A stretch of DNA of 55,152 bases from Microbacteriaceae bacterium VKM Ac-2855 (GTDB lineage: Bacteria; Actinomycetota; Actinomycetes; Actinomycetales; Microbacteriaceae): NCBI GenBank assembly GCA_013204985.1, contig JABMLG010000008.1, positions 205,477-260,628 of the forward strand. Direction: 5' to 3'. The translations under genes were made by a program, and so were the position numbers. The notes beneath the pieces were generated by a model that worked only from the letters and a program-made list of their open reading frames with translations, did no database searches and was not told the DNA's origin. Positions 7,122 to 17,872 of the stretch are shown in pieces (position 1 is the stretch's first letter; each line of letters begins with the position of its first letter).

Positions 7122-7607
7122 TCAGCGCAGGATCTCCACCAGGAGCACCCAGGCGTTCGCAACGGATCCGACGAAGGTCAGCAGGATCCCGGCGGCGATC
7201 GCAGAGGCACCGAACGGATCCCCACCCACGAGGAGGGCCGCTCCCACGACGAACGGGATGATCTGCACCAGCGCGACGGCGACCTTCACCCACGTCGCCG
7301 CGGTCGCCCGGGGCGCCGCGGCGCGCAGCACACGTATGACGGAATCGAGCGTCAAGGCGAGCTGCGCGAGCGAGAAGACGAGGATCTCCAGGCCGAGCAC
7401 CAGGATCGGCTGATGCGGGATGAGTCCGGCGGCGGCGTTGACGACGATGAGAACGAGCGAACCGATCGTGGCCGCAGCGCGGGAGGTCATGCTCGGGATG
7501 GCGATGATCTCCCGCACGTTCACCGTCATCGCGACGATGATCAAACCGGCCAGCGCACCCGCCGCTCCCGCGGTAGCGACGAAGAAGTCACTCCACCCGT
7601 CGATCAC
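7122..7607 (-). CDS. Hypothetical four-helix membrane protein
   Basis: A 161-aa hydrophobic protein with about four predicted membrane segments (roughly 8-28, 44-66, 68-90/104-128 and 132-158). I recognise no family. The GTG start at 7607 follows GGGAGG at 6 nt spacing. The first 67 codons and upstream sequence are present a second time at 8631-8861 at near-identity, separated by a marR/membrane-protein cassette. This copy is the complete one, so the truncated copy is probably a by-product of the insertion or duplication. Confidence 0.65.
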   Translation of the reverse strand: MIDGWSDFFVATAGAAGALAGLIIVAMTVNVREIIAIPSMTSRAAATIGSLVLIVVNAAAGLIPHQPILVLGLEILVFSLAQLALTLDSVIRVLRAAAPRATAATWVKVAVALVQIIPFVVGAALLVGGDPFGASAIAAGILLTFVGSVANAWVLLVEILR

Positions 7608-7637
7608 GTCGACCTCCCGACATCGCGGCGCTCACGG
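7407..7637. repeat. 231-bp direct repeat, left copy
   Basis: This matches 8631-8861 at 230 of 231 positions; the single difference is at 7631/8855. It covers the first 67 codons of the membrane-protein gene, its ribosome binding site and a little upstream DNA. The two copies are in direct orientation 1224 bp apart and enclose repeat copy B, a small membrane-protein gene and marR. Recombination between them would remove the cassette and leave an intact membrane-protein gene. Confidence 0.95.
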
Positions 7638-8205: not shown

Positions 8206-8637
8206 ATGTCCGTTCCGCAACTCCTCACAAGCACCGTCTTCCGACTCGGAGTCCTGGGCGCTCGGTGGGAGGACGCCTTCGCCCGCTCGATCGCGACGGA
8301 GGGCATCCGACCCAAGCACGTGGCCGTCCTTGCTCTGCTTCGCGAGGGCGTGCCGCGAACACAACAGGATCTTGCGGTCATGATGGGAGTCGGCCCGAGT
8401 CTCGTGGTAGCTCTGGCCACCGACCTCGAGACCAGCGGGGCGATAGTCCGTGAGCGTGACTCCTCCGATCGACGGCGACAGCAACTGCGACTCACCCCGG
8501 CCGGCGAATCATTGCTGGAGCGGTGCGAGATGGCCATGTCACGGCTCGACGCCGTCGTCGCCGACGCTCTCGGGCGCCGCGCAACAGACCTCGACGCAGC
8601 TCTCGCCGCGCTCGAAGGAGTCCAGCGTCCCGGCTGA
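8206..8637 (+). CDS. MarR-family transcriptional regulator
   Basis: A 143-aa winged-helix regulator. The recognition region is RTQQDLAVMMGVGPSLVVALATDLE (about 60-84, read in pieces), and the wing RERDSSDRRRQQLRLT is typical of MarR. Such proteins usually repress a divergent gene until a small phenolic or other ligand binds. The ATG at 8206 has no strong ribosome binding site; a TAGCAT -10-like hexamer lies about 8 bp upstream, so the mRNA may be leaderless. The last codons and stop fall inside the right copy of the 231-bp repeat, so the C-terminus may have been trimmed at the insertion junction. It likely controls the divergent membrane protein. Confidence 0.85.
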   Translation: MSVPQLLTSTVFRLGVLGARWEDAFARSIATEGIRPKHVAVLALLREGVPRTQQDLAVMMGVGPSLVVALATDLETSGAIVRERDSSDRRRQQLRLTPAGESLLERCEMAMSRLDAVVADALGRRATDLDAALAALEGVQRPG

Positions 8638-8861
8638 TGCGGGATGAGTCCGGCGGCGGCGTTGACGACGATGAGAACGAGCGAACCGATCGTGGCCGCA
8701 GCGCGGGAGGTCATGCTCGGGATGGCGATGATCTCCCGCACGTTCACCGTCATCGCGACGATGATCAAACCGGCCAGCGCACCCGCCGCTCCCGCGGTAG
8801 CGACGAAGAAGTCACTCCACCCGTCGATCACGTCGACCTCCCGACATCGCGGCGTTCACGG
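8631..8861. repeat. 231-bp direct repeat, right copy
   Basis: Direct repeat of 7407-7637 with a single mismatch. It starts within the last codons of marR and ends upstream of the truncated membrane-protein copy. Near-identity points to a recent event. Confidence 0.95.
8638..8831 (-). pseudogene. Truncated duplicate of the four-helix membrane protein
   Basis: A GTG start at 8831 with the same GGGAGG ribosome binding site begins a reading frame identical to the first 67 residues of the 7122-7607 gene. It then loses similarity at the marR 3' end and continues as antisense of marR. The frame stays open by chance into the membrane-protein gene beyond, but a functional fusion is unlikely. Confidence 0.75.
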
Positions 8862-9140
8862 ACGTACCGCTCCCTGCTGACCAGCGGTATCACCGCGGCA
8901 CGGATGAGATCGCGCTATCGAGGTCGAGCAGGAAGATCCGGATCAGTTCGCACGGGTGCGGCCACCCGACGGCATCTGCATCGCACCACTCTCGACTGCG
9001 AGCATCGGCCCGAGCAGTGTGGCCGTTCTGGGGGCGACGGCGTGGGGCTGGACGGAGTAGTTTCCGCACCAACGGGCGATGAGGTCCGAGCGGGTGCGTG
9101 ATGCGACCGTGGGCCTGAGCGTCCTTCTGAGGAGGGTCGC

Positions 9141-12100
9141 GTGGATGTACGAGAGGCTTTCAGGGAGCTTGGGGAGCTCCCGACTCGATGGTCGATCGGC
9201 GATGCCGAACTCGAGATCGATGTCGCCCTGCTCTCCGGCGGGGATGTGGATCGGGAGACCCGCATCATCCGCGGCGTCTCGGGTCGCGCGTGGACCACGA
9301 TCCCGTGCGCTCGTCCGCGGCTGCTGGGCCCTGAGCGGGCGGTGCGAGACGGTCGCGGTTTTCTGCACGCCGTCGAAGTGGTCGATGATCTCGTGCATCC
9401 CGAGACTCAGATCCTGCTCGCCGCCGCGCGCAGGGTGCGCGCGGATGCACAGCTCGGCGAGACGGTCACGGTGTCGTTCGACGCCGATCGCGCGGACCTG
9501 CGCCGGCTGCTCGAGCACGGAGCGGGGATCGGCGACCTCGTCGACGCCGACTCGCCGAGGTCGCGGTTCGCGGTCGAGTTCGACGATCTGACCGTCGATG
9601 CGTCCGATGCTCGCCTCGGCCGCGTCACCGGCGGCATCGCCCGGTACATCGATGAGCGCTCCCATCCCGTGGAGATCTGCATCGAGGGCTTCACTCTCGT
9701 TCTCGCCTCGATCGTGTTCGACCCGCGGCGCAGCACCGCCGAAGCATCGGTGCGTCTGCCCGACGGCGTGGTCGACGCCGTGTCCTGTGGGCCCGCGATG
9801 CTCGATCTCGGTTCCATCCGCCTCTCGCCGCGATGCGATTACTACATCGATCGGCCGGACCTCGCCTTCGGCCCCTGGCTGGTCGGCGACACGGGGGTGA
9901 TCATCGAGGGCACCGGCTGCGTGCTCGATCTCAGCAACCTGCGCAGCCCCAGCCCCCTGCCACCGCCCTGGCGCGGACTGCTGCTGCACGCCGGGCGGGC
10001 ATCGGGGGCCGAGCGGGTGCCGGAGCCGTGCAATTCCGGCTATCTGCGGGGCGAGTACACCTTCTCGGACGCCGTTGTGATCGCCACCGGGTTCGCCGGC
10101 CTGCTCGAGCTTGCGACGCCGATGGGTTTCACCGCGATCAATCCGTTCGGTCAAGGCTTCGCCATGGTCGCCGGCGCACTACAGCTGGATCGCAGCGAGG
10201 TCGCCGCAGGATGGTTCCGCGGCGAGACGGAGCTTCTCGTCGACGCCGTCTGCGAGGGCGCCCCCGGCAACGTGGTGCGAGTCGAGCTGCCTCACGTCTC
10301 GGTGCAGCCCGATCTGGACCTCACCGCGATTCTGGATCACGGTGGGCGGGAGGTGTCGTGGGGCGAACTGACCCGGCACGGCGAGGAGGCGGTCGTCTGG
10401 CGATCGCGGCCCACCGCCGGCTTCCTGTACCTGCCGGCGGGCGCAGTGGCGACGTATTCTCCGGTCGCCGCAGGCCCGTTCGTGCCCGTCAGCATCTCAG
10501 CGGGATGGAGTGGGAGTCTGCCCGAATTGGAGGCGAACGGTGTCTCCGGGGTGACTTTCGCAGCGATGGGATCCGTGTCCGTCGCGTCGCCGGACGTGCC
10601 GGGCAGCGCCCTCGCTCCGCTGGAGCTGGACGACGTCGTCGGCTGGCTGCGCGTCGGTGCGGCGGGCGTCGACGGCGAGCTGTTCCGCTTCAACATGCAG
10701 CTGCGGAGGGAGGTGGGGGAGCGGGCGCGGACCGGATACGTCGGCGTGACGGCATTCGACGTGACGCTGTTCGCTCATGAACGGCAGAACCTGATCGCAC
10801 AACTCGTGACCAGCGCCGCTTACGACTCGCACATCAGCGGTTGGCTGCACATCCCGGCACCGACCGACCTGATGGAGCTTCCGTTCGAACATCTCACGTT
10901 CACCTCGACCGGAAGCATCGTGGGCGGCGACATCGTGCTGCCGCCGGGAGGGTTACCGCTCGCCTACTGGGACGTCCAGCTCGTGCCGACCAGCCCGACT
11001 GCTCCGGCCGGTGTCCTGAGCGTGCGCACGGGCCGGATCCTGTTCACGGCCGCGGCCATCGCAGAACCCGAGCATTTTGCGCGCCCGCTCGGACTCACCT
11101 GGGGTGAGATGCTCGCGAACGGTGCGCTCGGCGAGCTGTACCTTGATTTCGCCGACTGGGGCCAGCGCTTCGACGGCCTGGTCTTCCATCCGGCGGAGGT
11201 GACGCTGTCCTCCTACATCCCGGGCGATCCGTTCGCGTACCTGGGCGTATCGGGTGACGTGGTGTTCCCGTTCTTCGGGGTCCATCACGTCAATGTCCGC
11301 GACGCGATCGGGGATCCGACCGTGATGCGCCCGTTCCCGCGACACGTCACCGTGCCCGCCTCGGCGATCACGCCGCACGGTCACACGACGGAACTCGCCT
11401 TGGCGGGCACCTGGTACGACGTGAACACGGCCGAGCTGGCGCGCTTCGACTGCCCGGAGATGCAGGTCGGCTACAACGAGGGAAGCCAGGACGGTTTCAT
11501 CGGCACGGGTGGCGCGGTGCTGTCCTTCCTGCACTCGGATCCGCTCGCGACCACCGTCGAGATCCACAGCGATGCGACCGATATCCGCTTCACTTCGGAG
11601 CAGGCCCACGATCTGGACCTCAGCGTGATCGCCCGCCTCGGCGCCCTCGGACAGATAGCCGGGAATCTCCGGATCGAGGGCCCGACGCTGCGCAGTATGA
11701 CCGTCTACGGCATGTTCGAGCAGAGCGTCGCGGTCGGGATCTTCGGGCCCAAGGCGGGCTATGAGGTCGAGGTGAACGTCACGGTGACGCCCACATCCTT
11801 CGACTTCTACGCCGCCGGCGACATGATGCTCTCCCTCGCTCTCGTCGAGATCGAGGCCTCCGCCACCGTGCACCTGCTCTTCGACTTCGCAGCCGGCACG
11901 GCGGAGGGCGAGCTGATTGGTCGCATCGACTGCGATGCCGTCGTCGCGGGACTCTCGGGGGAGGGGCAGCTGACCTGGTTCGTCGGGCCGACGATGCAGT
12001 ACCTGCAGGGTCGTCTGAAGGTCACGGTGTTCACTCTGGTCGCCGGAGCGACGCTCGAGGGCGGCTTCTTCCTCGGCAACGACACCCCGCGGGAGCTCGC

Positions 12101-12527
12101 CTGGGTGTTGGAGACCACGGATCCGAAATTCGGGATGTCACGCGCTCTGCTGCCGAAGAAGATCACCGGGGTCTACGGCTACGGTCGGGCGTCGTTCGCG
12201 GTGAACTACTACGTGATCGGCGGTGGTGTGGACATCTTCGTCGGAGTGGGCGCTTTCAGCGGTCCCGTCCAGACGGGCGGCCCGCTCGCCGGGATCACCG
12301 GCGCCGGCCCGCTGCCGTTCGTCGTGGGCGCGTGCGGCATCAACGTGCACGGTGAGATCCTCGGCGGCCTGGTGAGCGCGTCCGCATGGGCGACCCTCGC
12401 CATCCGCGGGCCCGCACCGCTCTACTTCGAGGGGACGTTCGGTCTGCGCGGCTGCGTGGCCTGGGTGCTCTGCGCCTCCGTCGACATCTCCGCGCGCTAC
12501 AGCGACAGCGGATTCGAACTCTCGTGA
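9141..12527 (+). CDS. Large beta-rich protein of unknown function (first gene of a three-gene cluster)
   Basis: An 1128-aa protein I do not recognise. There is no signal peptide, no clear membrane helix and no catalytic motif. Predicted structure is almost all beta strand. The first 900 residues read like a series of beta-sandwich units. The last roughly 250 residues contain short alternating polar/hydrophobic strands rich in Gly (YGYGRASFAVNYYVIGGGV, VGVGAFSGPVQTGG) resembling a beta-sheet wall or shell. Cysteines cluster near the C-terminus (GACGINVHG, RGCVAWVLCASVD). The GTG start is preceded by GAGGAGGG at 6 nt. The fibronectin-III gene begins 24 bp downstream, so co-expression is expected. 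It could be a structural or fibre-like component or an export-independent adhesin; this is inference. Confidence 0.75.
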   Translation: MDVREAFRELGELPTRWSIGDAELEIDVALLSGGDVDRETRIIRGVSGRAWTTIPCARPRLLGPERAVRDGRGFLHAVEVVDDLVHPETQILLAAARRVRADAQLGETVTVSFDADRADLRRLLEHGAGIGDLVDADSPRSRFAVEFDDLTVDASDARLGRVTGGIARYIDERSHPVEICIEGFTLVLASIVFDPRRSTAEASVRLPDGVVDAVSCGPAMLDLGSIRLSPRCDYYIDRPDLAFGPWLVGDTGVIIEGTGCVLDLSNLRSPSPLPPPWRGLLLHAGRASGAERVPEPCNSGYLRGEYTFSDAVVIATGFAGLLELATPMGFTAINPFGQGFAMVAGALQLDRSEVAAGWFRGETELLVDAVCEGAPGNVVRVELPHVSVQPDLDLTAILDHGGREVSWGELTRHGEEAVVWRSRPTAGFLYLPAGAVATYSPVAAGPFVPVSISAGWSGSLPELEANGVSGVTFAAMGSVSVASPDVPGSALAPLELDDVVGWLRVGAAGVDGELFRFNMQLRREVGERARTGYVGVTAFDVTLFAHERQNLIAQLVTSAAYDSHISGWLHIPAPTDLMELPFEHLTFTSTGSIVGGDIVLPPGGLPLAYWDVQLVPTSPTAPAGVLSVRTGRILFTAAAIAEPEHFARPLGLTWGEMLANGALGELYLDFADWGQRFDGLVFHPAEVTLSSYIPGDPFAYLGVSGDVVFPFFGVHHVNVRDAIGDPTVMRPFPRHVTVPASAITPHGHTTELALAGTWYDVNTAELARFDCPEMQVGYNEGSQDGFIGTGGAVLSFLHSDPLATTVEIHSDATDIRFTSEQAHDLDLSVIARLGALGQIAGNLRIEGPTLRSMTVYGMFEQSVAVGIFGPKAGYEVEVNVTVTPTSFDFYAAGDMMLSLALVEIEASATVHLLFDFAAGTAEGELIGRIDCDAVVAGLSGEGQLTWFVGPTMQYLQGRLKVTVFTLVAGATLEGGFFLGNDTPRELAWVLETTDPKFGMSRALLPKKITGVYGYGRASFAVNYYVIGGGVDIFVGVGAFSGPVQTGGPLAGITGAGPLPFVVGACGINVHGEILGGLVSASAWATLAIRGPAPLYFEGTFGLRGCVAWVLCASVDISARYSDSGFELS

Positions 12528-12551
12528 ACTCGACGACACCCGGGAGATGAC

Positions 12552-14939
12552 ATGGCCGACGACATCGCACTGCTGCAGACCACCTCGAGCGAGGTAGGGC
12601 CGGATGGGGTCGCCTCCGTCGTGCTCCGTTGGGAGAGCGTCGGCGAGGTGGTCGGATACCAGCTGCGTCGGCGGCCGATCGGTGCGCCTGCGAGCGAGGC
12701 CGTTCCCGTCGGCGGTGTGGTGCGGCTGCCCCGGTCGGCCGACGAGCTGCGCGCTGCCGTCGCGCCGGGGTCTCCCGGCTGGGATGAGCTCACCCGAACG
12801 CTCACGGCCGCGACGCCCGGTGCTCCGGGGACGGTCCCCGTCACCGTCGATCCCGCCGCCGCGTTCGAGCGCGGGCTGACCGGCGCCGAGGAACGTTTCA
12901 TCCGTGCGGGAGCGCAGGCGAGCCTCACCCTGGGCCGCGTTGCGGGGCTCGCTTTCGTCGACGCTGATCTGCCTGGCGGGGCCGAGCTGCTGTACGAGCT
13001 GCACGGGGTCCGCTCGGATGACAGCTCGCTGGTCCTCGCGAGTGACGTGTCCGTCATCGTCGGTGCCGTCGATCTCGCCGCGCCGCCGCAGGGGTTGCGG
13101 GTGCAGATCGGCGACCGGCGCGTGCTGCTGCTGTGGAACCGCAACCCGAAGGGCGCGGTGACCTATCTCGTGCAGCGCGCGGCGACCTCCGCCGGCCCCT
13201 TCGCGCAGGTGAATCCGCTGCCCGTCGCCTATGACATGACGGAGGGGATCGACGGGACGCCGTTGCCCTTCGAGCAGCCCGGATTCCTCGACGTCGGGGC
13301 GTGGGATGCGGACGGCCTGCCGGTCGCGCACCCTGTGGCGGGTGCTCCCGTTGCGGGTCCGGACACGGGCACGACGTACTGGTACCGCGTCGCCGCCCGC
13401 GACACCCTCGACCGGGTGGGCGCGTGGTCGACGCCGGTCGCGGCGGCGCCCGTGCGCTCCCTCGCGCCGATGGCGCCGGATGAGCTCGTCGTGCGCCCGA
13501 CTCCCGCCGCGACGGGTCTGGTGCTGGAGTGGCGGACGGTGCTGCGGAATGTGGAGAACCATCGGCTCGTCGACCGCACGTTGCCGGATCCGACCCAGAC
13601 CTCGCTCGTCTACCGCGCGGTCGCCCGCGCCGACCTGGAGGATATCGACGGTCTCGCCGCGCATCTGGTGGCGATGCCGACGGTGATCGGAGCGTCGAAC
13701 CCCGCGGTCGCCGTGCAGACGTGGACGGATACCGATCCCGTACTCGTGCCGCCGTACGGCACACAGCCCTTCTTCTATCGGCTGCGCGTCGTCGACGCGT
13801 TCGGGATCCTCAGCGCTCCATCGGCGATCGTTGCTGCTACTGTTCCGGACACCACGCCGCCCGGCCCGACCGACATCATCGCCGCGACAGGTGCGGCCGA
13901 TCGTATTCGCGTCGAGTGGAAGGGTAATCCGGAGCCGGATGTCGGCGGATACCAGATCTACCGCGGGCTCTGCGACCGCGGCTACGTGTACGTCCCGGGC
14001 GTCGTGCGCGTGCCGGGGCAGGAGGGGCCGGACCGCAGCCGGTACCGCTGCGACATGACCCTGGTCGGCGACGTACCGGTCGGAGAAGCCGCCTCGCGTC
14101 TGTTCCTCCAGGGAGTGATCTACTTCGAGGACACCAGCGTGCCCGCGAACTCGCCGCTCTGCTACGCCTACTGGGTGCGCGCCTACGACCATTCCGGCAA
14201 TCTTTACGCGGGTGAGGACGCCGCGTGTCCGAAGCCGGGGGAGTACGTGTGCGCGGCCCTTCACGAGAAGACCCCGCCCCGAGCCCCGGTGGTGACGGCG
14301 ATGCGCGCGCGCAATCGGGCGGTGGAACTCGAATGGATCGGCGCGCCCGAGCCGGACCTGCACGCGTTCCACGTCTACCGCTCGGACACCGAGGCCGACT
14401 CGGGTCGCTTCGTGGCGTGCGTGTTCACCGACGGATCCGTGCAGGCGACCCCGTGGGCCGGGGTCGTGCCCTCGTGTTCGGCGGTACCCGTGGTGGCCGA
14501 CCCGCTGGCCGCCCACGGTGTCTTCACCGACCACGATGTCGAGCCGCACCTCGTCCAGTGGTACCGCGTCTCGGCACTGGACTGGTTGGGCAACGAGAGC
14601 GATGCGGCAGCGATCGAGAACATCCCGTCGAGTTCCACCTTCACCTATAGGAGCGATCGCCCGGCGACGCCCACCGTGCATGCGGCGACCATCGATCAGG
14701 GCACCTGCGGGCTCGCGGTGGAGTGGGATGCACTCGCGAACGCGGCGGACCTACGCGGGTTCGTCGTCTTCCGCGCCGCGGTCGGCAAGCCGTATCGCCA
14801 AGTCTCGGGCGTCGTGACCGGCCTCGGCTTCGTCGATGAATCCGCCCGCCGTGGGGTCGACTACACCTACCGCGTGCAGTCCGTCGACCTCGCCGGCACC
14901 CTGTCCGAACCTTCCGCGCCGGTGCTGAACCGGTACTGA
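12552..14939 (+). CDS. Fibronectin type III repeat protein
   Basis: A 795-aa protein with about six FnIII-like domains: roughly 1-110, 175-305, 310-430, 435-575, 580-710 and 715-795. Later repeats show the usual pattern: TPPGPTDI or TPPRAPVV linker, VEWKGNPEPDVGGYQIYR or LEWIGAPEPDLHAFHVYR, then YWVRAYDHSGN or YRVSALDWLGN. There is no signal peptide, sortase signal or transmembrane helix, which is unusual for FnIII proteins that normally act outside the cell. GGGAGA precedes the ATG. It sits between the 1128-aa protein (24 bp) and the papain-like protein (14 bp), so the three probably form one complex or pathway. Confidence 0.85.
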   Translation: MADDIALLQTTSSEVGPDGVASVVLRWESVGEVVGYQLRRRPIGAPASEAVPVGGVVRLPRSADELRAAVAPGSPGWDELTRTLTAATPGAPGTVPVTVDPAAAFERGLTGAEERFIRAGAQASLTLGRVAGLAFVDADLPGGAELLYELHGVRSDDSSLVLASDVSVIVGAVDLAAPPQGLRVQIGDRRVLLLWNRNPKGAVTYLVQRAATSAGPFAQVNPLPVAYDMTEGIDGTPLPFEQPGFLDVGAWDADGLPVAHPVAGAPVAGPDTGTTYWYRVAARDTLDRVGAWSTPVAAAPVRSLAPMAPDELVVRPTPAATGLVLEWRTVLRNVENHRLVDRTLPDPTQTSLVYRAVARADLEDIDGLAAHLVAMPTVIGASNPAVAVQTWTDTDPVLVPPYGTQPFFYRLRVVDAFGILSAPSAIVAATVPDTTPPGPTDIIAATGAADRIRVEWKGNPEPDVGGYQIYRGLCDRGYVYVPGVVRVPGQEGPDRSRYRCDMTLVGDVPVGEAASRLFLQGVIYFEDTSVPANSPLCYAYWVRAYDHSGNLYAGEDAACPKPGEYVCAALHEKTPPRAPVVTAMRARNRAVELEWIGAPEPDLHAFHVYRSDTEADSGRFVACVFTDGSVQATPWAGVVPSCSAVPVVADPLAAHGVFTDHDVEPHLVQWYRVSALDWLGNESDAAAIENIPSSSTFTYRSDRPATPTVHAATIDQGTCGLAVEWDALANAADLRGFVVFRAAVGKPYRQVSGVVTGLGFVDESARRGVDYTYRVQSVDLAGTLSEPSAPVLNRY

Positions 14940-14953
14940 CAGAGAGAGCCATC

Positions 14954-16456
14954 ATGGGCATCCTCGACACCTTCGACCCGCGGCGTGACGGCTGGTCGTT
15001 CCAGAATTTCACCACCACCGATCTCAGCTGGGACGTCTACCGGCGCAGCTACCTTGCCATCAACCCGTCCAAGAGTGCGGCGTCGCCGCTCGACCTCGCC
15101 TTCTACGAGATCTTCACGGGCTGCGCGAAGCACGGCAACTGCGGCGGGATGTCGGTGCTCGCGCTCACGCTGTTCCGTTTCGGCGGCTACCTCGGCTACG
15201 GTTCGCCCGCGTACTTCTACGGCGGCGGATCCGACCTCCGCGGGGTGAAAGGTCCGGCGCGGGCGGATCTCGCCGAGGCGCTGAACATCATGCAGGCTCG
15301 GCAGTTCAGCGCCACCGGCATCCGCAACTTCGTCGACGTGGTCAAGGCCGGCCAGCTCAACGACGCCGTCGCCGCTTACGCCCGGATCGAGAGCGGCTTG
15401 GCCAGCGGCGATTACCACGTGCTCTCGCTCGCGAACAGCCTGTTCGGCGAGGCAGCGCACACGGTCATCCCGTACCGGGCCGAAATCGTCGCAGGAGTGC
15501 GCCGACTGTGGCTGTGGGACCCGAACCGGCCGTACGACGACTTCCCGAAGCACTACGACCAAGCGAAGAACCGGATCGACATCACCGGGCCTACGGCCTG
15601 GAGTTACGACCAGAACGCCGCGGGGTACTCGGGCGGCCGCGTCTACCAGGGCTCCAACGCCGGCTGGTGCTTCGCGATCCCCACGTCACTCATCCGGCAC
15701 AAAGCGCGTCAGCCGATCAGTGTCGGTTTCGATCTCACCAACGCGTTCAACCTCCTGTTCGTCAGTAACACGGGGGCCGTCACCCAGATCGAGGACGACG
15801 ACGGTCGGCGTCTTTTCGCCGGCCCCGACACCGGGGCCCCGGAACCCGACCGAGGCCGCCGGATCGAGGGTGTGTACCCGTGGCCGCGTTCGGGGGCGGG
15901 TTCGCGGGCGAGCGATGGCGAGCTGTTCATCCTCGAGCGACCGCCGGACAGCGCCCCGGTCACCCTCACCGTCCGCGGCGCGGATTATCGGCTGCGCCAC
16001 CTCGGCGGGGATCGACTCATCGATATCGCAGCGCGCGGCGCGGACGGCCAGGACAGCATCCGGCTGGAAGCGACACGCACGTCACCCGTGGTCGAGGTGC
16101 GCACATCCGCCGACGAACGACACTTCGACGTCCAGCACGTCCGCGCCGATGGACCCCACCGGTGGGAGGGGGTGAAGGTCAGAGACGTTTCTGTAACGGA
16201 CGACGCCCTCCGCGTGCACATCTCCCACTCCGACGTCGGGATCGGATCCGTCGAGGTCTCCTCCGGACACGAGCGCCGCGGCATCGGCGTCGAATTCGAA
16301 CGATTCCACGAGGATCGACTGACGGTCGCGGCGCTCCGCCACCAGCGGATCGCTGTCGACGGTGTGCTCAGGGCACGCCCGGCGCGATTCGTTGCACAGG
16401 AGCGGGATGCGGACGGTGCTACTGACGAGGTCGAACCGACGGTCGTCAGGTTCTGA
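14954..16456 (+). CDS. Papain-like cysteine peptidase/transglutaminase-fold protein
   Basis: A 500-aa protein. The N-terminal roughly 210 residues carry a papain-like arrangement in order: CAKHGNCGGMS with the likely nucleophile Cys63 (Cys57 also present), EAAHTVIPY with His169, and LWLWDPNRPYD with Asp189/Asn191. This is a C-H-D/N triad as seen in C39-like and related cysteine hydrolases. Residues about 265-500 look like beta-sandwich material of unknown type (ISVGFDLTNAFNLLFVSNTG and onward). No signal peptide is present. The AGAGAGAG region supports the ATG at 14954. Third gene of the cluster; it could process the partner proteins, act as an effector, or crosslink. The enzymatic call is by motif only. 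Confidence 0.65.
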   Translation: MGILDTFDPRRDGWSFQNFTTTDLSWDVYRRSYLAINPSKSAASPLDLAFYEIFTGCAKHGNCGGMSVLALTLFRFGGYLGYGSPAYFYGGGSDLRGVKGPARADLAEALNIMQARQFSATGIRNFVDVVKAGQLNDAVAAYARIESGLASGDYHVLSLANSLFGEAAHTVIPYRAEIVAGVRRLWLWDPNRPYDDFPKHYDQAKNRIDITGPTAWSYDQNAAGYSGGRVYQGSNAGWCFAIPTSLIRHKARQPISVGFDLTNAFNLLFVSNTGAVTQIEDDDGRRLFAGPDTGAPEPDRGRRIEGVYPWPRSGAGSRASDGELFILERPPDSAPVTLTVRGADYRLRHLGGDRLIDIAARGADGQDSIRLEATRTSPVVEVRTSADERHFDVQHVRADGPHRWEGVKVRDVSVTDDALRVHISHSDVGIGSVEVSSGHERRGIGVEFERFHEDRLTVAALRHQRIAVDGVLRARPARFVAQERDADGATDEVEPTVVRF

Positions 16457-16566
16457 CCGTGACGTATCCGACGTCGGTGGCCTGTTCATCGCGTCCGTGT
16501 TGCGTTGGTCCCTGCTGAGGTTGCTGCTTTCGTCGGGCAGGAGCGCGCAGCTTCGCTCAGTGGCTG

Positions 16567-16634
16567 CACAACTTCGGCTGAGAGCGTCGCTCAGCGCTGA
16601 TGGGCGCTGACGGCCTCTCTCAACCGAAGTTGTG
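16567..16634. terminator. Long inverted repeat, probable bidirectional terminator
   Basis: The arms CACAACTTCGGCTGAGAG (16567-16584) and its complement at 16617-16634 pair at 17 of 18 positions. A nested TCAGCGC/GCGCTGA stem with a 6-nt loop lies inside. It sits in the gap between two convergent genes, as expected of a shared terminator. The rest of the 16457-16753 gap has no gene. Confidence 0.6.
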
Positions 16635-16753
16635 TCCGGCGCGCGATGTCAGCGGGCCGTGGTGACGGGTGAGTGTCGCCGTGCCGGCACACGCAGCGCG
16701 TCCGGCTGGCCGCCTCAACTCCGACGAGACCGCCGACCGTGCTGCCTCGCCGT

Positions 16754-17872
16754 TCAGGCACGCCAGGCGGCGGCGGGCGTGAGCGGTACCGGTGCCGAGC
16801 GGGCGACCGAGCTCCGGATGGGGATGCGCCTGCCCGCGGCGGCGGAGTCGAGCAACCCGGTCATCACCTCGAGCACGTGCAGGGCCAGGGCGCCGCTCGC
16901 TCGCGCGTCGCCGCGGATGAAGTCGAGTAGCCCCACCCCGCGTGCGCCCTCCTCGAAGCCGGCGCTCGTCGGCACCGCCGACCACGCGGAGTCGCCCAGA
17001 CCGAAGTGGCGGACCTCGCCGCCGAAACCGTTCGGATCGGGTACGGCGAGCGAACCGCTCTCGCCGTGCACCTCGATCGGCGCCGCGGTGGTGGCGACCG
17101 CGTCGAAGCTGGTGACGATGGTCGAGAGTGCGCCGTTCTCGTGCTGCAGCACCCCGGTGACGTGGGTGTCGATCTCGACGGGGATCCGCTCGCCGGCGCG
17201 CGCGCCCGAGCCGATCGTGCGCTCCTCTCGCACCCGGCTCGCCGCTCCCGTGACGGCTACGACCGGGCCGAGCAGGGTCACCAGCGCCGTAACGTAGTAC
17301 GGCCCCATGTCCAGCAGCGGCCCGCCACCGACGCGGTAGTAGAAGTCGGGATTCGGATGCCACCGCTCGTGTCCGGCGGTCACCATGGTCGCGGTGGCAG
17401 CGAGCGGCCGCCCGATCAGTCCGCCGTCGATCGCGCGCCGGGCGGTCTGGATGCCCGTACCGAGCACGGTGTCGGGAGCCGCACCGACCGCGACGCCGGC
17501 GCTCGTCGCCGCATCGATCACCGCGCGCGCCTCGGCGAGGGTCGCAGCGAGCGGCTTCTCGCCGTAGACCTGCACGCCCGCCGCGATCGACCGCAGCGCG
17601 ATGTCCGCGTGCGCCGCCGGGATGGTCAGGTTCAGCACGGTCTCGACCTCCGGATGCGCGATCAGCGCATCGACGTCCAGCGCCACCGCGCCGGGGACGG
17701 CCGCGGCGACCTCCGCGGCTCGCGCCGCGTCGAGGTCCGCCACGGCCACGATCCGCACGGCCGGATGCGCGGCGAGCGTGTCGAGGTACTGCCGCGAGAT
17801 GTTGCCGAGACCGACGATGCCCAGCCCGTGCCGGTGTACGCCGTGCCGATCTACACCGCGCGCGTCGCCCAC
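16754..17872 (-). CDS. Gfo/Idh/MocA family oxidoreductase (third of cluster)
   Basis: About 372 aa. The N-terminal Rossmann fold has LGIVGLGNISRQYLDTLA, the conserved EKP motif appears in YGEKPLAATLAEA, and GGGPLLDMGPYYVTALVTLLG lies in the C-terminal substrate domain. It oxidises a sugar or polyol with NAD(P). The start is awkward: the expected Met just before GLGIVGLGN is absent, and the nearest usable codon is the GTG at 17872, overlapping the ThuA stop by 22 nt and adding about 16 residues. It is the last gene of the five-gene overlapping operon starting at 21627. Confidence 0.8.
   Translation of the reverse strand: MGDARGVDRHGVHRHGLGIVGLGNISRQYLDTLAAHPAVRIVAVADLDAARAAEVAAAVPGAVALDVDALIAHPEVETVLNLTIPAAHADIALRSIAAGVQVYGEKPLAATLAEARAVIDAATSAGVAVGAAPDTVLGTGIQTARRAIDGGLIGRPLAATATMVTAGHERWHPNPDFYYRVGGGPLLDMGPYYVTALVTLLGPVVAVTGAASRVREERTIGSGARAGERIPVEIDTHVTGVLQHENGALSTIVTSFDAVATTAAPIEVHGESGSLAVPDPNGFGGEVRHFGLGDSAWSAVPTSAGFEEGARGVGLLDFIRGDARASGALALHVLEVMTGLLDSAAAGRRIPIRSSVARSAPVPLTPAAAWRA

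Follow-up and report, generated by a model that had tools for sequence, protein, structure and literature searches.

TANFOR proteins are polymorphic toxins that are almost confined to Bacteroidetes, as described in the passages of PMC7073777 (Jana, Salomon, Bosis 2020) on which this comparison draws. These passages state that approximately 87% of TANFOR proteins carry a Sec signal, that fibronectin type III (Fn3 or FnIII) domains and cargo domains of the type IX secretion system (T9SS) are enriched nearby, and that the toxin is sometimes encoded one gene downstream of the TANFOR gene; the words papain and cysteine are absent from its main text. Two other classes bear on the locus described here, the fibronectin type III repeat proteins (PF00041) and the papain-like cysteine hydrolases of clan CA. 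The locus is a cassette of three genes, P1, P2, and P3, in a 55,152-nucleotide stretch of DNA from Microbacteriaceae bacterium VKM Ac-2855 (contig JABMLG010000008.1). This whole stretch is referred to as the window, and positions are those of the window unless a contig is named. The genome is actinobacterial, with 4.7 Mb in 26 contigs and a GC content of about 68–70%.

P1 occupies positions 9141–12527 of the forward strand, starts with GTG, and encodes a large protein of 1128 amino acids of no known family. P2 follows on the same strand at 12552–14939 with an ATG start and encodes 795 amino acids with about six FnIII-type repeats. P3, at 14954–16456 on the forward strand, encodes a protein of 500 amino acids with a papain-like cysteine hydrolase signature. 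The spacing is 24 nt between P1 and P2 and 14 nt between P2 and P3, and all three frames are intact and lie exactly where a previous sequence-only reading of this DNA had placed three adjacent, co-directional genes.

The cassette is a conserved three-gene unit in two phyla. When 84,980 species' genomes were scanned for P1, 13 stretches carried the pattern, and one of them encoded a relative, on contig L003 of a Sphingobacteriales metagenome-assembled genome (G452). All three genes are present on this contig in the same order as in the window. The best segment of P1 is 30% identical over residues 78–1117 (expect value (E) 2e-127; 31% in a second comparison), and P2 and P3 match over their full length (26%, E 6e-82, and 26%, E 9e-37, respectively). 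Searches with a P1 profile were performed in genome samples that overlap and are each a part of a larger group. On the side of the window genome, one of 60 near relatives, one of 396 genomes of the phylum, and one of 248 genomes of the order were positive, and this was always the window genome itself. On the other side, positives numbered four of 395 in the phylum of L003 (one of them a NusA gene, which was dropped), one of 248 in its order, and six of 197 in the class of G660. P1 is thereby carried by eight genomes (G000, G452, G466, G660, G1298, G1308, G1319, and G1349). In all seven complete loci, from the window genome and six Bacteroidota, P1, P2, and P3 stand in one order and on one strand. 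The eighth locus, in G1298, is split over two contig ends, one carrying the start of P1 and the other its remainder together with the greater part of P2. Intergenic gaps are short in most loci, the exception being 502 nt between P2 and P3 in L023. The window proteins share 28–31% (P1), 25–30% (P2), and 25–28% (P3) pairwise identity with the six relatives. The sequence-only reading had proposed a scan of actinobacterial genomes for conserved co-occurrence of the three genes and would have been refuted by their separation elsewhere. This check did not refute it; the genes occur together in Bacteroidota, and the actinobacterial samples yielded only the window genome. Literature searches, which covered open-licence papers only, found no description of the unit.

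The proteins of the two phyla differ at their N-termini. A hydrophobic signal-like segment, called by hydropathy and not by SignalP, lies within the N-terminal part of all 18 Bacteroidota proteins (maxima 2.16–3.35) and of none of the three window proteins (1.06–1.86 over the first 110 residues). In the P2 proteins of L011 and L012, the listed open reading frame begins upstream of the likely start, which places the segment at residues 71 and 56, respectively. In the window, the best 12-residue hydrophobicity within the first 60 residues is 1.00 for P1, 1.02 for P2, and 1.05 for P3, and within the first 110 residues it is 1.28, 1.06, and 1.86, the peak of P3 being the stretch around Cys63. The upstream DNA leaves no leader either. 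In-frame room amounts to 13 codons before P1 and 38 non-hydrophobic codons before P3, and a stop lies eight codons before the ATG of P2; a ribosome-binding-site-like AGGAGGG (9130–9136, forward strand) precedes the GTG of P1. No anchor or strong membrane segment was found in the window proteins, for which the best 19-residue hydropathy is 1.57, 1.81, and 1.15. The sequence-only reading was therefore right that none of the three carries a signal peptide or anchor, but its idea of an intracellular assembly is not supported by the relatives. Because every one of the Bacteroidota proteins begins with a signal-like segment, the product of the cassette is probably an exported assembly, of which the window genome would hold a leaderless version.

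These findings suggest a three-protein assembly that is exported in the Bacteroidota relatives and is held by the actinobacterium as a complete version lacking both the leaders and an N-terminal head that extends P1 in several relatives. The probability of this reading is estimated at about 0.6. P1 would be a very large scaffold, and the TANFOR-like head on some of its relatives would relate it to a class of proteins for export or toxin delivery. P2 would be a linking or displaying rod built of FnIII repeats, and P3, a putative papain-like cysteine hydrolase, would act on a substrate outside the cell or mature P1 and P2. The actinobacterial cassette lacks the head and the three signal peptides and retains the bodies and the catalytic signature of P3. 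The locus offers a natural experiment, in which three proteins occur with and without export signals, and through this contrast maturation of the partners by the enzyme could be told from an attack on another target. Whether the actinobacterial version works in the cytosol or is released by an unconventional route, the two are about equally likely.

No family of NCBIfam or PHROGs matches P1, and no Pfam family does so above threshold, which agrees with the earlier statement that the 1128-residue protein matches nothing known. Residues 77–118 of P1 (42 residues, window 9369–9494) resemble Pfam NusA_N at a sub-threshold E of 0.022, and a P1 profile of seven rows reached NusA chains in the PDB at E 0.0011. 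This NusA-N-like resemblance recurs in Pfam, PDB, and genome searches, each time weakly. G463 (E 9.2e-4) was considered as a carrier of P1 and was removed from the count of cassette genomes, its locus being a real NusA gene. Comparison of P1 and P3 with solved structures by sequence gave nothing beyond chance-level or NusA-like matches. Internal repeats were not found in P1 by profile self-comparison. Two other features of composition were considered and set aside. Lysine is scarce in P1 (0.44%) and P2 (0.63%), and this was dropped as a toxin-like sign because low lysine is a habit of the genome, with a median of 0.90% and a minimum of 0 in 30 other predicted window genes. Cysteines kept in all six relatives are 5 of 12 in P1, 5 of 8 in P2, and 1 of 3 in P3, and the remaining ones are kept in none. 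As an argument for conserved disulfides this is suggestive and was not used, since tryptophan (8 of 18 in P1) and glycine (50 of 133) are equally invariant.

The window P1 corresponds to the body of the longer proteins of its relatives (profile positions ~290–1413) without their N-terminal head. The head is present on P1 of L011, L021, L022, L023, and L025, that is, in five of the eight loci. All five heads resemble TIGR02542 (TANFOR) with 18.8–44.0 bits (E 0.0012 to 2e-11), below the cut-off of 67, and no such match exists in P1 of the window, L003, or L012. The heads also match toxin-type proteins on Bacteroidota plasmids (Emticicia, Persicobacter, and Bergeyella) with 60–90 bits. The Emticicia protein is annotated as an HNH endonuclease, and an SMI1/KNR4 protein adjoins it. 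A search for the TANFOR family was negative in 198 genomes and is uninformative because 14 control genomes were negative as well; the carrier G466, which it listed, also gave no match and is headless. An FnIII gene follows P1 in all eight loci. Three loci have homologous genes immediately before a head-bearing large protein (L058 6830–8674, L023 14942–16678, and L025 2558–4294), and those of L023 and L025 share 27% identity over 398 residues with the gene directly upstream of the Emticicia toxin-type gene. They appear to encode an outer-membrane barrel, possibly a dedicated outer-membrane partner, of which the passages of PMC7073777 make no mention. In L022, P1 is preceded by a gene whose T9SS sorting domain scores above the cut-off, and homologues of this gene lie two positions before P1 in L023 and L025. 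The shared head and these neighbours would connect the cassette to a recently described toxin class.

Toxin delivery, rather unlikely in itself, is the most probable of the alternatives. It would make the cassette a non-polymorphic TANFOR offshoot, in which P1 carries or cages P3 as an effector against the cells of other organisms. The TANFOR-like heads, the constant FnIII neighbour, the T9SS sorting domain in L022 with its homologues, and the homology of the upstream gene to the one before the Emticicia HNH gene are all consistent with it, as are the PMC7073777 passages, which describe toxins encoded one gene downstream of TANFOR genes and an enrichment of Fn3 and T9SS-cargo domains nearby. 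However, the six loci whose DNA extends 3 kb beyond P3 share no gene within that distance (the L021 contig ends after 73 nt), so that a toxin with a fixed immunity partner is disfavoured. The body of P1 and P3 are constant and do not show the variation typical of polymorphic effectors. Moreover, the window P1 lacks a head, a leader, and any C-terminal toxin domain recognised by Pfam, NCBIfam, or PHROGs, its partners are likewise leaderless, its host is an actinobacterium, and the Emticicia protein itself falls short of the TANFOR model at E 0.01.

The order of the papain-like signature proposed by the sequence-only reading was confirmed in P3 and is kept in all seven proteins. On the forward strand, the codon of Cys63, the presumed nucleophile within the motif GNCGGM, lies at 15140–15142, that of His169 at 15458–15460, and those of Asp189-Pro190-Asn191 at 15518–15526. 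Across the seven proteins, the invariant columns include Trp14, Phe16, Asn18, Trp26, Asp47, Gly61, Cys63, and Gly65, and further His169, Asp189, Pro190, Asn191, and Arg192. The GNCGGM pattern has a single match in the whole genome, at 15134–15151. The signature lies within residues 1 to ~262, and the C-terminal remainder is absent from the 334-residue relative in L012. On these motifs, P3 is a putative active hydrolase. It has no match in Pfam, NCBIfam, or PHROGs, and no known toxin family was found there (padloc was not searched). Thus, a unit spanning two phyla includes a large protein and an enzyme that are in none of the family libraries searched.

P3 resembles papain-like hydrolases in its Cys-His-Asp/Asn order, and the best profile alignment with the C39-like family PF13529 puts the His and the Asp-Pro in register. 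It differs in having no sequence match in Pfam, NCBIfam, or the PDB. The hhalign comparison with PF13529 was not significant (E 0.064, and 0.39 with the G237 protein of L049 added, against 0.30 and 0.55 for unrelated controls) and gave no support for C39 membership. A P3-profile search of 198 actinobacterial genomes gave four positives, namely the window genome, G237 (E 2.4e-25), G133 (E 2.1e-4), and G084 (E 3.4e-4). In G237 (L049 5133–7685), the P3-like domain is fused to LGFP repeats, which presumably bind the cell wall; the protein is truncated by the contig end, and the motif Asp is replaced by Asn. G133 and G084 encode small stand-alone proteins, each about 200 residues long, in which the Cys, His, and Asp-Pro motifs are all present (Asp-Pro-Asp in L048). 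Their genes, at L047 1360–1977 and L048 about 1440–2019, adjoin a lipoyl-synthase-like gene. Because there are relatives in these three genomes, and those of G133 and G084 have no Pfam family, P3 is, on the evidence of profile matches, a member of a broader family that is nameless in Pfam.

A second alternative, somewhat less probable than toxin delivery, takes P3 as a peptidase whose sole task is to process P1 and P2. The mature complex would then be a fibre, an adhesin, or a surface layer, with the actinobacterial form as an intracellular filament or store. P3 follows P1 and P2 in every complete locus and is constant in kind, and FnIII repeats next to a large, repeat-free scaffold fit a structural role. 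Against this, the window proteins have no anchor or strong membrane segment.

Several points weigh against the reading of an exported assembly with a leaderless actinobacterial version. The predicted models have a mean predicted local distance difference test (pLDDT) score of 27.6 for P1 and 39.2 for P3, both too poor for a fold search. The proposed fold and activity of P3 consequently rest on its motifs. The stand-alone P3-like proteins of the two other actinobacteria, G133 and G084, have no evident leader, and for this reason P3 may descend from a cytosolic protein. Where resolved, the P1 and P2 trees are congruent, joining L011 and L021 at 100/100 and 99/98, respectively, but the P3 tree differs within Bacteroidota and joins L021 with L022 at 84/94. 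Because of this incongruence, the three genes may at times have moved independently. In these trees, which have no fixed root and give the window a very long branch with long-branch warnings, the leaders may have been either lost or gained. Mutual binding of P1, P2, and P3, which an assembly would imply, is presumed. The more specific proposal, an exported machine re-made in leaderless form through the joint disappearance of the head and the three signal peptides, which is now cytosolic or leaves by a new route and has a P1 body and a P3 family with no entry in the libraries searched, has slightly less than even odds.

A secreted system that was acquired horizontally, has since shed its leaders, and is now decaying would explain why only the window genome is positive in the actinobacterial samples, and why synteny with the nearest relative, G008, breaks exactly at the stop codon of the adjoining gene, but it is very improbable in view of three long intact frames, the invariant catalytic residues, and GC values at the level of the genome's other genes (GC3 0.85, 0.86, and 0.85 and GC2 0.50, 0.53, and 0.49 for P1, P2, and P3, respectively). 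G008 is 86% identical to the window from 22744 down to this stop codon at 16754 and divergent beyond; its contig stops 1 kb past the divergence point, and no empty site was seen within that span.

P2 is the only one of the three proteins that passes a Pfam threshold, with 25.6 bits for fn3 (PF00041) against a cut-off of 25. Profile self-comparison gave a repeat spacing of ~120–135 residues, consistent with the roughly six repeats previously counted. It differs from other FnIII repeat proteins in having no signal, no anchor, and fixed partner genes. The phage-like form of the particle suggested by the sequence-only reading was dropped, as no relative was found for P3, the P1 of L011, or the window P2 in 50,697 phage records (the window P1 itself was not among the queries) or in six viral-contig scans; the matches of P2 to PHROG tail proteins (best E 1.4e-8) speak against dropping it, but they are of the kind that any FnIII repeats give.

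The surroundings of the cassette contain further structures. P3 and a Gfo/Idh/MocA gene converge, and the space between them holds a hairpin of −55.4 kcal/mol (z −6.1) at 16560–16643 (about 16555–16645 in a wider delimitation), with no strand assigned and equalled by none of 200 shuffles. Its 11-nt arm does not occur a second time within the window, and it may be a shared terminator or a repeat element. Upstream of the cassette, a direct repeat of 231 nt with 100% identity (7407–7637 and 8631–8861, 1224 nt apart) is arranged around a MarR-type gene at 8206–8637, and the membrane-protein gene at 7122–7607 is reported to have its 5' portion within the second copy. Past the same Gfo/Idh gene in G008, a by-eye reading of L043 8320–9310 found an array of palindrome-like units with GTTGTCAGTC cores, followed by the start of an HNH-type gene.

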